Of a DNA stretch of 64,000 bases, positions 33,613-39,048 are shown in pieces (positions within the stretch are counted from its first letter, which is position 1; the number at the start of each line of letters is the position of its first letter). Below the pieces are notes generated by a model. It had not been told where the DNA came from. It ran no database searches and saw only the letters and a program-made list of their open reading frames with translations. Origin of the DNA: Alphaproteobacteria bacterium (lineage in GTDB: Bacteria; Pseudomonadota; Alphaproteobacteria; Sphingomonadales; Sphingomonadaceae); the NCBI GenBank assembly GCA_018970445.1, contig JAGWWF010000016.1, forward strand, positions 1 to 64,000, in the 5' to 3' direction. A program made the position numbers and the translations under genes.

Positions 33613-36600
33613 TCGCCGCGCTGATTTCGGCCAGCGAGCGCAACCGCGGCGGCATCGTGCTGGCTGCCATCATCGCGGTGGCCATCGGCCTTTGGCATCT
33701 TGCCACCCTGCCGATCGATGCCATTCCCGATGTGACCGGCGTGCAGGTGCAGGTCAACACCGCGGTGCCGGGCCTGGCCGCGCCGGAAATCGAAACCCGT
33801 GTCACCGTGCCGATCGAACGGCTGATGGGCGGGCAGCCCGGCCTCACCGGCTTCCGCTCGCTCACCCGGTCGGGCCTGAGCCAGGTAACGTTGCTGTATG
33901 AAGACGGCACCGACGTGCTGCGCGCCCGCCAGCTGGTGGCGGAACGGCTGGGCACGGCCGCCGCGCTGCTGCCACCCGGCGCCGCGCCGCAGCTGGCGCC
34001 GATCACCACCGGGCTGGGCGAGATCCTCTATTACACGCTGGAATGGGATCATCCGCCCGATGACGAACCGCACCATCCCGGCCTGACCCCGGCCAGCAGC
34101 GAAGATGATCATCTGATGGCGCTGGCCGAAACCCAGGAATATGTGGTGGTGCCCATGCTGCGCACCGTGCCCGGCGTGGCCGAGGTGAACAGCATCGGCG
34201 GGCTGGAACGCCAATATGTGATCGAACCTGATCTGGCCCGGCTGGCCGCCGCTGGGGTGACGCCGGCCGAACTGGCCGCGGCGGTGGCGGCCTTTGCCGA
34301 AAACGCCGGCGGCGGCGCCATCAGCCGTGCCGGTCGCCGGCTGGTGGTGCGCACCGATGCGCGCGTGATTCAGCCCGAAGCCATTGGCGCGCTGCCGGTG
34401 AAATTTGCCGGCGGCGTGCGGCCGCTCACCGTGGCCGATCTGGCCACGGTGCGGGTGGGCAGCGCCCTGCGATCGGGCGCGGCGACGGTGAATGGCGAAC
34501 AGGCGGTGCTGGGCACCATCATGCTGCTGGCCGGCCGCAACAGCCGCGAGGTGGCGCGTGCTGTCGATGCCGCCCTGCCCGATGTGCAGGCGGCGCTGCC
34601 CCGTGGCATGGTGATCCGCGTGCGCTATGACCGGGCCGATCTGGTGGAACGCACGGTGGCGACCGTGCAGGCCAATCTGTCGGAAGGCGCGCTGCTGGTG
34701 GCGCTGGTGCTCATCCTCATGCTGGGCCACTGGCGCGCGGCGCTGATCGTCGCCGCCGTCATCCCGGTGGCTTTTCTGATCGCCGCCATCTTCATGGCGC
34801 GGCTGGAGATTTCCGGCAATCTGATGAGCCTGGGGGCGCTGGATTTCGGCCTGCTGGTTGATGGGGCGATCGTGGGCATCGAAAACGCCCTGCGCCGGCT
34901 GGCGGCAGAACAGACGCGGCTGGGCCGGCCGCTGGACGAGGCCGCGCGCCGCGCCCTGATCGCGCGGGCGATGGGTGAGGTCGCCCGCCCGGTGGCCTTT
35001 GGCGTGGCGATCATCACGCTGGTCTATGTGCCGGTGCTGGCGCTGGGCGGGGTGGAGGGCAAATTGTTCCGTCCGATGGCGCAGACGGTGATGCTGGCGC
35101 TGGCCGCGGCGCTGCTGGTCAGCCTCACGCTGGTGCCGGCGCTGGCGTCCTTGTTCCTGCGGGCTGGCGGCGATCATGGCCCCGGCCGGCTGATGCGCGG
35201 CCTGGAGGCCGGCTATCGCCCGGTGCTGGCCGCCACGCTGGCACGGCCGGCGCTGGCCATCGTGCCGGCGCTGCTGGTGATGCTGGCCGCCGGGTTGATC
35301 TTCACCCGGCTGGGCACCCTGTTCACGCCGCGGCTGGACGAAGGCGCGATCACCGCCATGGTCTATCGCCCGACCGACATGAGCCTGGAGGCCAGCCTGG
35401 CCCAGCAACAGGCGATCGAACGGGCGATCCTGCAGAAGTTCCCGCAGATTACCCATGTGTTCTCGCGCATCGGCACGGCGGCGGTGGCCACCGATCCGAT
35501 GCCGCCGAACGAGAATGATCTGTATGTCCACTACAGGCCGCAGGGCGAATGGCCGGCTACCGGCCCGCAGACCAAGGCCGAACTGGTGCAGGCGATCGCG
35601 GCCGAAGCCCGGCGCATCCACCCCGATCAGCGCTTCCTGTTCGCCCAGCCCATCGAAATGCGCTTCAACGAGATGCTGGAAGGCACCCGCGCCGATCTGT
35701 CGGTGAAGATCCACGGCGATGATGATGACCGGCTGGAGGCGCTGGGCGCCGCCGCGCTCAAGGTGCTGGAACGCCTGCCCGGCACCGCCCAGGCCGAATT
35801 TGAAGTGGATGGCCGCACCCCCAGCCTGGTGGTGACGGTGAACACGCAAGCGCTGGTGCGGCTGGGCCTTGGGGCAGACGAGGTGAACCGCGCCATCCGC
35901 GCCGGGCTGGCGGGTGAAGAGGTTGGGGCCATATTGGAAGGCATCCGCCGTCACGCCATCGTGGTGCGCCTGGCCGATGCGCAGCGCGCCGATCTGGATG
36001 CGATCCGGGCGCTGCCGCTCAGGGTGGGGGCGGCCGGGCTGGTGCCGCTGGGCCGGGTGGCGACATTGCACGAAGTGATGGCGGTGGAACCGGTGCGGCG
36101 GGACAATGGCCAGAAGCGCGCCGCGCTGCTGGTCAACCTGTCGGGCAGCGATGTGGAGGCCTATGTGGCGCGCGCCCGCACCGAACTGGCCAGGGCGGTG
36201 CCGCTGCCCGCCGGCTATCACATCGAATTTGGCGGCCAGTTCAAGCAGTTGCAGGAAGCCAAGGCCCGGCTGGCGGTGCTGGTGCCGGCCTGCCTGCTGT
36301 TGATCCTGGTGCTGGTGTTCGCGGCGCTGGGTTCGCTGCGCCAGGCGCTGATCGTGTTTGCCGGCATTCCGCTGGCCGTCACCGGCGGGGTGTTCGCGCT
36401 GGCCTTGCGCGGCATGCCGTTTTCGATCACGGCGGCCATCGGCTTCATCGCGCTGTCGGGCATTGCCATGCTCAATGGCCTGGTGCTGGTGGACCATATC
36501 AACCAGCTGCGCGCCGCCGGCATGGCCCGCGCCGAAGCGGTGGTGGCCGGCGCGATCGACCGGCTGCGCCCGGTGCTGGCCACGGCGCTGGTGGCAGCGA

Positions 36601-36749
36601 TCGGCTTTGTGCCGATGGCGCTGGCCAGCGGGGCGGGGGCCGAAGTGCAGCGCCCGCTGGCCACGGTGGTGATCGGCGGCATCATCTCCTCCACCCTGCT
36701 CACCCTGTTGCTGCTGCCCACCCTGTATCGCCGCCTGGCAGGGGATTGA
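33609..36749 (+). CDS. Heavy-metal RND efflux pump, CzcA/CusA family
   Basis: A 1046-residue inner-membrane proton antiporter of the HME-RND group: helix 1 at residues about 12-32, two large periplasmic loops, and eleven further helices. The diagnostic helix-4 motif DFGLLVDGAIVGIEN (about residues 412-426) carries the two Asp and the Glu needed for proton transfer and divalent-metal export. PIDAIPDVTGVQVQVNT at the start also matches CzcA/CusA. Cation specificity is not deducible. The membrane-fusion adaptor (CzcB/CusB type) that normally accompanies such pumps is absent between or after the two genes. Confidence 0.93.
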   Translation: MIAALISASERNRGGIVLAAIIAVAIGLWHLATLPIDAIPDVTGVQVQVNTAVPGLAAPEIETRVTVPIERLMGGQPGLTGFRSLTRSGLSQVTLLYEDGTDVLRARQLVAERLGTAAALLPPGAAPQLAPITTGLGEILYYTLEWDHPPDDEPHHPGLTPASSEDDHLMALAETQEYVVVPMLRTVPGVAEVNSIGGLERQYVIEPDLARLAAAGVTPAELAAAVAAFAENAGGGAISRAGRRLVVRTDARVIQPEAIGALPVKFAGGVRPLTVADLATVRVGSALRSGAATVNGEQAVLGTIMLLAGRNSREVARAVDAALPDVQAALPRGMVIRVRYDRADLVERTVATVQANLSEGALLVALVLILMLGHWRAALIVAAVIPVAFLIAAIFMARLEISGNLMSLGALDFGLLVDGAIVGIENALRRLAAEQTRLGRPLDEAARRALIARAMGEVARPVAFGVAIITLVYVPVLALGGVEGKLFRPMAQTVMLALAAALLVSLTLVPALASLFLRAGGDHGPGRLMRGLEAGYRPVLAATLARPALAIVPALLVMLAAGLIFTRLGTLFTPRLDEGAITAMVYRPTDMSLEASLAQQQAIERAILQKFPQITHVFSRIGTAAVATDPMPPNENDLYVHYRPQGEWPATGPQTKAELVQAIAAEARRIHPDQRFLFAQPIEMRFNEMLEGTRADLSVKIHGDDDDRLEALGAAALKVLERLPGTAQAEFEVDGRTPSLVVTVNTQALVRLGLGADEVNRAIRAGLAGEEVGAILEGIRRHAIVVRLADAQRADLDAIRALPLRVGAAGLVPLGRVATLHEVMAVEPVRRDNGQKRAALLVNLSGSDVEAYVARARTELARAVPLPAGYHIEFGGQFKQLQEAKARLAVLVPACLLLILVLVFAALGSLRQALIVFAGIPLAVTGGVFALALRGMPFSITAAIGFIALSGIAMLNGLVLVDHINQLRAAGMARAEAVVAGAIDRLRPVLATALVAAIGFVPMALASGAGAEVQRPLATVVIGGIISSTLLTLLLLPTLYRRLAGD

Positions 36750-36761
36750 GGAATCGCCGCC

Positions 36762-37060
36762 CAGCGCCTACATGGGATGTGCCGGCTTGCCGGCTATGGC
36801 GATAAATGATGCCGTGGAATAGACGCAGCGGACCCGGGGGCAGTACCCGGCGGCTCCACCATTCTCCAACCCGTTGTCGGGGCGATGTTTGGGGCCGAAC
36901 CAGAATCGACGTGTGTTCAAAGACGATGTTTTCGCCCGGCCTGAATGCGCCGTAAAACCGTTCAAACACCACAAATGCCAACGACAACGAGGCATTCGCG
37001 ATCGCAGCGTAACTGAAGGTCTTCACCGACCAAAGGTTACACTGGCCGAAAGCGCGGCAC
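36762..37060 (+). ncRNA. ssrA: tmRNA (ssrA), circularly permuted two-piece form
   Basis: The gene order is reversed relative to one-piece tmRNA. The acceptor part comes first, with T-arm CCGGG-GGCAGTA-CCCGG and 3' end CGGCTCC-A-CCA (36851-36861). A 29-base intervening loop follows, then the 5' part GGGGCCGAACCAGAATCGAC from 36891. GGGGCCG pairs with CGGCTCC including the G3-U70 wobble used by alanyl-tRNA synthetase. A P2-like helix joins CGTGTGTTC (36910-36918) and GAATAGACG (36817-36825). The tag frame at 36977-37012 reads ANDNEAFAIAA then TAA. The outer boundaries are approximate. It rescues stalled ribosomes and tags the product for ClpXP. Confidence 0.93.
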
Positions 37061-37100
37061 GGGCCACGCCGGGCAACAGAAGTGGATTCCAGCGGCCAGA

Positions 37101-37260
37101 GGGGGGCCGGGCAACAGAACCCCCTCACCAACCTGCGTGTGGCAAGGCCCCCCGGAAAATTCAGTCAATTTGGGGGGCCGGGCAACATTACCCCCTCACC
37201 AACCTGCGTGCGGCAAGGCCCCCCGGAAAATTCAGGCCGTTTGGGGGGGCGGGCAACATG
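37101..37260. repeat. 71-bp tandem repeat, about 2.2 copies
   Basis: Two near-identical 71-base units begin at 37101 and 37172, and the first part of a third begins at 37243. Each starts GGGGGGCCGGGCAACA and contains CCCCCTCACCAACCTGCGTG and GGCCCCCCGGAAAATTCAG. They differ at only a few positions. GGCCCCCC of one unit can pair with GGGGGGCC of the next, with AAATT/AATTT extending the stem, so the array could fold into strong hairpins. It fills the space between ssrA and the DUF3833 gene. I do not recognise the family. Confidence 0.85.
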
Positions 37261-37266
37261 GCCGAA

Positions 37267-37779
37267 TCAATCGGTTTTCCGGATCACCTCATCCAGTCGC
37301 GCGACCGGCAGGCCGAATTTCCGCACGATCATCACATTGTGCAGCGTGCGGCCATCGGCCTGCAACGCCAGTGTCTGTTCGGCCTGAAACCCGCCCTTCA
37401 TGGCAAAGCGCAGGTGCAGCCGGCCAGCGGCCAGCCGGCCGCGCACCGGCCCGCTGGCATCGCTCAACGCGCCGCTGAACCCGCTGTCGCCAGCGCGGCG
37501 CAGCGTCCATTGCCGCCGGGTCGGCGCCTGGCCCGCCACGGTCACCGTCTGCTCCAGCCGGATCGTGCCATCGGGCATCGCCACGCCGTGCCCTTCAACC
37601 GCAATGCTGCGGGGCCGGCGGGTGGCGATGCGCAACCGGCCCTCGCCGTGGGTGGTGCCGGCAAAGAAGGCGATGGGATCAAGCGGCGGTGCGGTGGCCG
37701 CTGGCCGGGGCAGCCCGCCGCTGGCCACGCAGCCCGAAACACTGCCCAGCATCACCACCGCTGCCAGTTGCTGTCGCAT
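37267..37779 (-). CDS. DUF3833-like lipoprotein
   Basis: A 170-residue protein with a lipoprotein signal (MRQQLAAVVMLGSVSGC, lipobox VSGC, Cys17) and a mature domain beginning PLDPIAFFAGTTHGEGRLRI. The FF-G-T-x-GEG sequence is the start of DUF3833, followed by alternating beta strands and the RQWTLRR and GRLHLRF regions. The role of this family is unknown; it is expected at the outer membrane facing the periplasm. The frame stays open upstream, but the lipoprotein signal sets the ATG at 37779. It is divergent from sspB and converges on the tandem repeat. Confidence 0.75.
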   Translation of the reverse strand: MRQQLAAVVMLGSVSGCVASGGLPRPAATAPPLDPIAFFAGTTHGEGRLRIATRRPRSIAVEGHGVAMPDGTIRLEQTVTVAGQAPTRRQWTLRRAGDSGFSGALSDASGPVRGRLAAGRLHLRFAMKGGFQAEQTLALQADGRTLHNVMIVRKFGLPVARLDEVIRKTD

Positions 37780-37918
37780 GTGCCGCTTCTCCCTGTTGCC
37801 GGCGACGCCGGGGTGCGGCGGCGCGATGCGTCTTGTCACACGGCCATGGCATGGATGCTTGACCTCGCCCGCGCCCCGCGCCAATCCAGACCACGCACAT
37901 CAGCCAAGGCCGCCCGTC

Positions 37919-38401
37919 GTGACCGAAACCACCCCAGACAGCCTGATCCCCTATGACGACATCGTCCAGGACGCGCTGCGCGGCGTGGTCAGCCGTGTGT
38001 TGCGCCGCATCCAGGCCGATGGCGGCCTGCCCGGCGGCCATCATTTCTATATCGCCTTTCGCACCCGTGCGCCCGGCGTTGCCATCCCGGCGCACCTGAA
38101 GGAACGTTATCCCGACGAGATGACCATTGTCATCCAGCATCGTTATTGGGATCTGGTGGTGGCCGATGATCATTTTTCCATCGGCCTGTCGTTCAACCAG
38201 ATGCCGGCCACGCTGGTCATCCCCTATGATGCCATTGTCGGCTTTGTCGATCCGGCGGTGAATTTCGCCCTGCAATTTGCGGCCAAGGATGGCGAGATCC
38301 CGCCCGATCAGCCGCCCGAACCCGAAGCACCGCCGCCCGAAACGGATGGCGGCTCCAACAGCGGCAATGTCGTCACGCTCGATCGGTTCCGCCGCAAGTG
38401 A
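37919..38401 (+). CDS. sspB: SspB-like ClpXP adaptor for ssrA-tagged proteins
   Basis: A 160-residue alphaproteobacterial SspB. The folded substrate-binding domain runs to about residue 125 (YDDIVQDALRGVVSRVLRRI, HFYIAFRTRAPGVAIPAHLKERYPDEMTIVIQHRYWDL, FSIGLSFNQMPATLVIPYDAIVGFVDP). A flexible Pro/Glu linker leads to the short C-terminal tail VVTLDRFRRK that docks on ClpX. SspB binds the N-terminal part of the tmRNA tag and hands the protein to ClpXP. The GTG at 37919 is preferred; upstream sequence in frame lacks conservation. The gene lies 0.9 kb from ssrA and overlaps gmk by four bases. Confidence 0.9.
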   Translation: MTETTPDSLIPYDDIVQDALRGVVSRVLRRIQADGGLPGGHHFYIAFRTRAPGVAIPAHLKERYPDEMTIVIQHRYWDLVVADDHFSIGLSFNQMPATLVIPYDAIVGFVDPAVNFALQFAAKDGEIPPDQPPEPEAPPPETDGGSNSGNVVTLDRFRRK

Positions 38402-39048
38402 CCCAGTTTGCCCGCCGTGATGCGCCAGCCCGCCGCGGGCTGATGTTCGTGCTGTCATCGCCGTCGGGCGCCGGCAAGACCACCCTGTCGCGCGCCCTGC
38501 TGGCCGAAGACCCCGACATCACCATGAGCGTTTCGGCCACCACCCGCCGCCCCCGCCCCGGCGAGGTGGACGGGGTGGATTATTATTTCGTCGGCACCGA
38601 TCAGTTCCAGTCGATGGTGGCGGAAAATGCCCTGCTGGAATGGGCCACCGTGTTCGGCAACCGCTATGGCACGCCGCGCAGCCCGGTGGAGGCGGCGCTG
38701 GCCGCCGGCCGCGACGTGCTGTTCGATATCGACTGGCAGGGCACGCAGCAGTTGCAGCAGACCGATGCCGCATCCGATCTGGTGCGGGTGTTCATCCTGC
38801 CGCCCAACCTGGCCGAACTGGAACGCCGGCTGACCAGCCGCGCCACCGATCACCCCGACGTGATCGCCGGCCGCATGGCCCGCGCCCGCGACGAGATCAG
38901 CCACTGGGGCGAATATGATTATATCCTCGTCAATGATGACGCCGAAACCTGCCTGAGCGAGATCAGGGCCATCCTGCAGGCCGAACGGCTGCGCCGCAAA
39001 CGCCAGCTTGGCCTGGCCGGCTTCGTGCGCGGCATGCTGGGCGAATGA
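38398..39048 (+). CDS. gmk: Guanylate kinase
   Basis: A 216-residue cytoplasmic enzyme that phosphorylates GMP to GDP. The P-loop is SSPSGAGKTTLSR (about residues 20-32). It is followed by the GMP-binding SVSATTRRPRPGEVDGVDYYF with the conserved Arg and Tyr residues, and later FDIDWQGTQQL and the lid Arg region RLTSRATD. It starts with GTG overlapping the sspB stop (GTGA), and its own stop overlaps the next start (ATGATG). sspB, gmk and the following gene are probably one operon. Confidence 0.96.
   Translation: MTQFARRDAPARRGLMFVLSSPSGAGKTTLSRALLAEDPDITMSVSATTRRPRPGEVDGVDYYFVGTDQFQSMVAENALLEWATVFGNRYGTPRSPVEAALAAGRDVLFDIDWQGTQQLQQTDAASDLVRVFILPPNLAELERRLTSRATDHPDVIAGRMARARDEISHWGEYDYILVNDDAETCLSEIRAILQAERLRRKRQLGLAGFVRGMLGE

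Follow-up and report, generated by a model that had tools for sequence, protein, structure and literature searches.

Permuted tmRNA gene with a tandemly repeated tail pseudoknot upstream of sspB in Alphaproteobacteria

We analysed a 64,000-nucleotide stretch of DNA from a member of the Sphingomonadaceae (positions 1 to 64,000 of contig JAGWWF010000016.1, assembly GCA_018970445.1; hereafter, the window), in which a gene for transfer-messenger RNA (tmRNA; ssrA), a tandem repeat and the adaptor gene sspB lie close together. tmRNA adds a tag to stalled proteins, and SspB hands the proteins so marked over to ClpXP. Here, we report that the core of the repeat is the tail module of the tmRNA, i.e. 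its 3'-terminal pseudoknot, and that ssrA and sspB are linked in most sampled genomes of the class that have both genes. Taken as a whole, the locus very likely consists of a permuted tmRNA gene and a gene for SspB-alpha in a widespread alphaproteobacterial gene order, the repeat being made up of tandem copies of the tail module.

The tmRNA gene and its tail module

ARAGORN called a permuted tmRNA gene with the tag ANDNEAFAIAA on the plus strand (36766-37103), and the region 36742-37090 matched the Rfam family alpha_tmRNA (RF01849) at 215 bits, the gathering score being 50; tmRNA_permuted (RF04321) matched as well, at 135 bits. In the permuted order, the acceptor piece with its CCA (end at 36861) precedes the coding piece (start at 36891). 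Moreover, the start of the coding piece, GGGGCCG, pairs with CGGCTCC of the acceptor piece, with a G-U at the third pair, and the tag frame starts with ANDN and ends with AA. Thus, a tmRNA of the two-piece type carrying this tag, as proposed in an earlier reading of the DNA (the original prediction), was borne out as a permuted gene. From the family, the mature tmRNA is predicted to be in two pieces; in S. meliloti, pieces of 204 and 82 nt were detected by Northern blot, as reported in PMC2245857. Among the other genomes (numbered with G; loci are numbered with L), G065 had three alpha-tmRNA matches above the cut-off, while G190, G193 and G198 had none above it.

ANDN begins 140 of 144 tags, duplicate loci being counted. 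Two exceptions, L010 (ANEN) and L084 (ANNN) from genomes G059 and G174, were seen again in the DNA; these are natural variants of the tag start, and in both genomes sspB still lies at most 5 kb downstream. The other two exceptions called by ARAGORN, L179 and L184, are probable mis-readings; our script reads ANDNNEAFAVAA and ANDNEMALAA there. Because the tag start is nearly invariant, co-evolution of tag-maker and tag-reader in the AND part of the tag, which had been suggested originally, is not visible, and we found no evidence for it in these tags.

Tandem Repeats Finder (TRF) detected a 71-bp tandem unit in 2.2 copies; the two full copies in the window are identical at 64 of 71 positions, spacer included. 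CGGGCAACA occurs six times in the window compared with 1.3 expected, and four of these occurrences are in the repeat region. The motif GGCAACA is found at 37072, 37110, 37181 and 37252, i.e. in the repeat as well as in the stretch just upstream, and is also present near the tmRNA end in the Rfam model. Each repeat unit carries the stem-loop of the 3'-terminal tmRNA pseudoknot with the loop GCAACAGAA. The tandem repeat, which had been described as unknown, is therefore real, but its core is the 3' pseudoknot of the tmRNA. In total, the window contains four copies, of which two are good pseudoknots, the third is a hairpin only and the fourth has decayed (Table 1). In pseudoknot 1, we read the helix S1 as CGGC/GCCG with 5 nt between, while the script favoured a longer pairing 17 nt off. 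The array is partly decaying, as seen from the changed loop of copy 3 and the missing 3' arm of copy 4. The 3' ends of the coding piece given by Rfam (37090) and ARAGORN (37103) both lie before the end of the second pseudoknot (37126). The repeat was also considered as a dispersed element; this was rejected, the sole other genome match at E <= 0.001 (45 bp, 83%) lying in L002, where it was judged by eye to be chance and is probably within a gene.

Of 118 distinct tail sequences from Alphaproteobacteria, 116 have a similarly built module after the tag; the 118 are a convenience set in which several sequences were fetched for having the pattern. It is built of a stem, S2, around a loop that consists of a 4-nt strand and then GGCAACAGAA, with small variations; in many tails, a short upstream strand pairs with the first four loop bases to form S1, giving an H-type pseudoknot. 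The rule for a unit allows one mismatch to GCAACAGAA, or more if GGCAACA is intact, and requires a stem of approximately four pairs. The arms of S2 pair with their own partner at 5.78 of 6 positions compared with 4.25 of 6 across loci (0 of 2000 permutations). At a fixed spacing of 2 nt, which played no role in the detection of units, each position of S1 has a standard pair in 52 to 56 of the 61 distinct units whose S2 is 7 bp long, and the first S1 pair alternates between T-A (36) and C-G (16; 0 of 2000 permutations). Where S2 is 6 bp long (nine distinct units), S1 is fully paired, with too little variation for the permutations to be informative (221 of 2000). When the spacing is left flexible, 62 of 112 primary units have Watson-Crick pairs at all four S1 positions compared with 19% of cross-combinations. 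Taken over the 61 distinct units at the fixed spacing, the module has the two interleaved, covarying helices of an H-type pseudoknot; copies 3 and 4 of the window are without an adjacent S1.

Some points weigh against our reading of the locus. The permutation tests ignore relatedness, and detection by loop plus hairpin inflates both S2 pairing and loop conservation. Folded alone, the repeat is at the level of shuffled sequence (z-score 0.03), on which ground we rejected that it is an unusually stable RNA by itself. Moreover, both copy 3 and copy 4 have degenerated in the window, and most extra units have a distant S1 or none, so that the extra copies may do nothing. Finally, the mature ends and the two-piece processing are predictions from the DNA sequence, transcription of copies 3 and 4 is hypothetical, and a scan for consensus sigma-70 promoters found no site near sspB.

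The gene shares the gene order, the tRNA-like domain, the tag and the conserved GGCAACAGAA tail with the two-piece alpha-tmRNA of RF01849 and differs from it in having two to four copies of the tail pseudoknot. The printed structure line of RF01849 has no nested pairs in the tail region; pseudoknots are not printed in such lines. PMC1168896 describes the alphaproteobacterial pseudoknot pk4 as having shrunk to one helix, whereas our data support two helices for the module, which we infer to correspond to pk4. According to the same source, cyanobacterial tmRNA has a tandem pk4a and pk4b, two small pseudoknots 3' of the tag, and in this respect resembles the tail described here; that RNA differs in being in one piece and from another lineage.

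Copy number of the tail module

By the hairpin rule, the 118 tail sequences contain one unit (73 sequences), two (29), three (13), four (1) or none (2), and an internal tail unit is present in 37 loci; L010 and L084 are absent from the tail counts because the search expression demands ANDN. Among 21 loci of the window's genus, 14 have two units and 7 have three or four. Counting the GGCAACA motif gives 8 such loci, the eighth, L059, having a third GGCAACA without a hairpin. Sandarakinorhabdus limnophila has three units, compared with two in S. oryzae (L042). In addition to the terminal unit, 21 extra units were found in 17 of 116 loci compared with 0.93 expected from Markov resampling; the extra unit of L022 is without the loop and probably chance, and that of L187 is weak. 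Extra units are also present outside the genus in loci that were not fetched for the pattern (e.g. L011, L024, L030 and L182), and L182, an alphaproteobacterial metagenome-assembled genome, has a tidy 68-nt array followed by sspB. A survey of the family for a further copy of the pattern 50-80 nt away gave hits in 46 of 249 genomes, most of which may be chance since the reversed-pattern control gave 18; eight tail-like hits were hand-picked and fetched, from which no frequency can be derived. We conclude that the module is usually present twice in the window's family and that it has been re-duplicated to three or four copies in part of the genus, in which the nearest named relatives are Sandarakinorhabdus, as well as in some other lineages.

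The near-identity of the two 71-bp copies, which extends to the spacer, the decay of copies 3 and 4 in the window, and the differences in copy number among close species all fit a non-functional tandem duplication by replication slippage that included the tmRNA tail, in which case only the first two pseudoknots would matter. By contrast, the extra units elsewhere have other spacings, i.e. 39 nt in L011, 68 nt in L182, 82 nt in L195 and about 98 nt in L024, and, in a set of 20 extra units, the two arms of a unit fit each other better (4.65 of 6) than they fit the arms of other units (3.88 of 6). We give this explanation an even chance.

In L048 and L052, the spacers after units 2 and 3 hold a strand complementary to the 5' arm of the unit. 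This strand changes with the arm (GGGAGGGC with GCCCTCCC), matching at 8 of 8 positions within L048 and L052 and at 5-6 of 8 with other arrays; for these two units, alternative pairing is possible, as is a single inherited change.

Linkage of ssrA and sspB

The sspB gene of the window matches PF04386 (E 1e-42; 146 bits, cut-off 27), and its product aligns with the solved chains 2nys (AGR_C_3712p), 2qas and 2qaz ('SspB Protein'), SspB-alpha proteins that it matches over most or all of its length with E-values from 5e-43 to 5e-38. By analogy to these relatives, the window SspB would bind the ssrA tag and deliver tagged proteins to ClpXP. The original prediction was correct in placing sspB near the tmRNA gene; the distance from the last good pseudoknot (37126) to sspB on the same strand is 792 nt rather than 0.9 kb, and a gene on the opposite strand that encodes a DUF3833 protein, absent from that prediction, lies between the two (Table 1). 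By eye, DUF3833-like sequence also follows the array in L041, L047, L048, L049 and L052 and does not in L057 and L059.

Table 1. Features of the window from the tmRNA gene to gmk
Feature	Position	Strand	Basis or remark
tmRNA acceptor piece region, tRNA-like 3' part, CCA end 36861	36742..36861	+	RF01849 alignment, CCA position; 5' end approximate
Intervening segment, predicted to be removed	36862..36890	+	Between CCA and GGGGCCG; removal predicted from family
tmRNA coding piece, extended here to end of second 3' pseudoknot	36891..37126	+	Predicted 3' end
Tag reading frame ANDNEAFAIAA	36977..37012	+	
Tail pseudoknot 1, internal: S2 CCAC/GTGG, loop GGCAACAGAA	37055..37085	+	
Tail pseudoknot 2, last one in most relatives: S1 CGGC/GCCG, S2 GAGGGGG/CCCCCTC	37093..37126	+	
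71-bp tandem array, the repeat of the original prediction	37101..37259	+	TRF; 64/71 identity
Extra copy 3: S2 hairpin retained, loop altered to GGCAACATTA, without adjacent S1	37171..37198	+	
Extra copy 4, decayed, 3' arm gone	37242..37258	+	
DUF3833 gene, convergent, between tmRNA and sspB	37267..37779	-	PF12915 E 1.6e-8
CTTGACC, candidate -35 of sspB promoter	37858..37864	+	TTGACC in 21/21 genus loci
sspB, SspB-alpha adaptor, 160 aa, GTG start	37919..38401	+	PF04386; PDB 2nys/2qas/2qaz
gmk, guanylate kinase, 4-nt overlap with sspB end	38398..39048	+	TIGR03263 above cut-off

We surveyed 142 other genomes of the class, leaving out the window's own and using the best match per genome. In 106 of the 131 genomes with both genes, sspB was at most 5 kb downstream of ssrA on the same strand, and in 88 of these 106 the two matches were separated by 250 nt or less. 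In the remaining genomes, the two genes were on one contig and otherwise placed (6) or on different contigs (19); the latter were counted as unlinked, and some of them are possibly assembly breaks. By family label, which was typed from tables, the linkage was present in 84 of 104 families, and in the window's genus it was present in 21 of 22 genomes with both genes. The window's own genome and its nearer relatives provided 58 genomes with both genes; of these, 41 were linked, 5 were unlinked on one contig and 12 had the genes on different contigs, and linkage was often lost in other genera of the window's family. Thus, the proposal that tag-maker and tag-reader form a conserved neighbourhood held up across the class and in the window's genus. 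An SspB match was absent in 10 of 143 genomes.

In other bacteria, smpB-ssrA gene pairs place the tmRNA gene beside the gene for a trans-translation protein, as described in PMC2245857. Here, the neighbour encodes a proteolysis adaptor instead, and none of 136 genomes had smpB at most 5 kb from ssrA. This count uses match starts; smpB and ssrA lie on separate contigs in 108 of the genomes and on one contig in 28, the nearest at 15 kb.

As a control, we used thyA, which has no known role in trans-translation. For this, we chose 40 of the 142 genomes, namely G060 to G108 minus nine whose sspB was absent, not linked to ssrA or located on a different contig. In this subset, thyA was within 5 kb of ssrA in 12 of 16 thyA-bearing genomes, and sspB was within 5 kb in 15 of the same 16. 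The distances were taken from tables by hand without a script, and the control favours intact neighbourhoods for both genes because those nine genomes were left out. The gene order thyA - ssrA - sspB is thus found in some Alphaproteobacteria, and since thyA is often near ssrA as well, the linkage could be explained by ancestral local gene order. We conclude that the linkage is broad, yet alone is no evidence of shared function. The 12 genomes divide into 11 with thyA divergent from ssrA and one, G088, with the two genes on the same strand. In G096, the stretch near ssrA is a broken thyA-like one, and better thyA copies are present elsewhere in the genome.

Transcription signals, alternative readings and implications

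TTGACC is present upstream of sspB in 21 of 21 loci of the window's genus, while 0.022 occurrences per locus are expected in shuffled sequence; the motif was first spotted by eye and counted afterwards. Because it is kept in all 21 loci, sspB in this genus is probably transcribed separately from its own promoter. In L090 (1850-1868), a plausible sspB ATG was found by eye 11 nt after the terminal stem of the tmRNA; as this leaves no room for a separate promoter in between, the arrangement suggests that sspB is co-transcribed with the tmRNA in this locus. The automatic sspB start finder errs in some loci, including L090, and its median was not used.

If the linkage is functional, co-transcription or co-regulation would tie the adaptor level to tagging, and extra pseudoknots would tune read-through into sspB. 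The same strand and order in the linked families, the short gap in L090 and the distant smpB, although both genes are on one contig in 28 genomes only, are consistent with such a role. By contrast, thyA is also near ssrA in most thyA-bearing genomes of the chosen subset, the linkage is lost in several genera of the window's family, and, in the window, the convergent gene separates the pair and sspB has its own motif. Moreover, the tmRNA neighbours in 'Candidatus Pelagibacter ubique' are thyX and a COG4696 gene rather than sspB, according to PMC2704228. With thyA at 12 of 16 and an sspB motif of its own in 21 of 21 loci, the neighbourhood did not demonstrate functional coupling of the two genes, and we regard such coupling as doubtful.

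GC-rich hairpins between convergent genes in the window could also be an array of intrinsic terminators or a bidirectional terminator between the tmRNA gene and the convergent DUF3833 gene. However, a scan for a GC hairpin followed by a T run detected by its rule 0 sites in 36600-38100, L057 and L059 also have a third copy, with no gap before sspB as wide as that of the window, and the loop is more conserved than a terminator requires, as far as the detection rule permits this comparison; this explanation is improbable. It is a long shot that the tail pseudoknot is a portable module multiplied in tandem, in which each copy would be a 3'-end stop or processing site and copy number would split the precursor between tmRNA and read-through into sspB, thereby coupling tagging to adaptor supply. 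That the repeats are attachment-site scars of integrative elements using the tmRNA gene is highly improbable, because copies 38-98 nt apart, which in the window share spacers, leave no space for an element between them; integrases were not searched for.

In the reading that we favour, i.e. tandem copies of the tail module in a widespread gene order, the tail pseudoknots would fold and shield the coding piece at its 3' end, the site at which a read-through precursor would be trimmed. This proposed role follows a review that ascribes folding and maturation to the later tmRNA pseudoknots (PMC3968760); two pseudoknots are typical of two-piece tmRNA according to another review (PMC3985003). Extra tail copies would serve as spare stops for the 3' end, for the most part dispensable and in decay. 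The genes for tag-making by tmRNA and for tag delivery by SspB to ClpXP would be neighbours, with sspB in the genus probably having its own promoter.

Keyword searches of the literature, with key older papers on tmRNA and SspB outside their coverage, gave no report of the ssrA-sspB linkage or of a tail array. The original assertion that the linkage is not discussed agrees with these searches insofar as no explicit statement was found; nevertheless, both genes flanking the alphaproteobacterial tmRNA gene are described as conserved, and are unnamed, in PMC2245857. The array of tail pseudoknots is new, as is the finding of how broad the linkage is, while the keyword searches leave room for earlier reporting of the linkage itself.

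Altogether, the last pseudoknot of two-piece tmRNA is a covarying module that has been repeatedly duplicated, and for this reason the natural copy-number variants could be used to probe the role of the tail pseudoknot. The predicted 3' end of the window tmRNA, and of the tmRNAs of relatives with at least two tail units, is seemingly truncated by current models. Finally, the neighbourhood of tag-maker and tag-reader is documented class-wide, together with a thyA control that any functional claim must beat.
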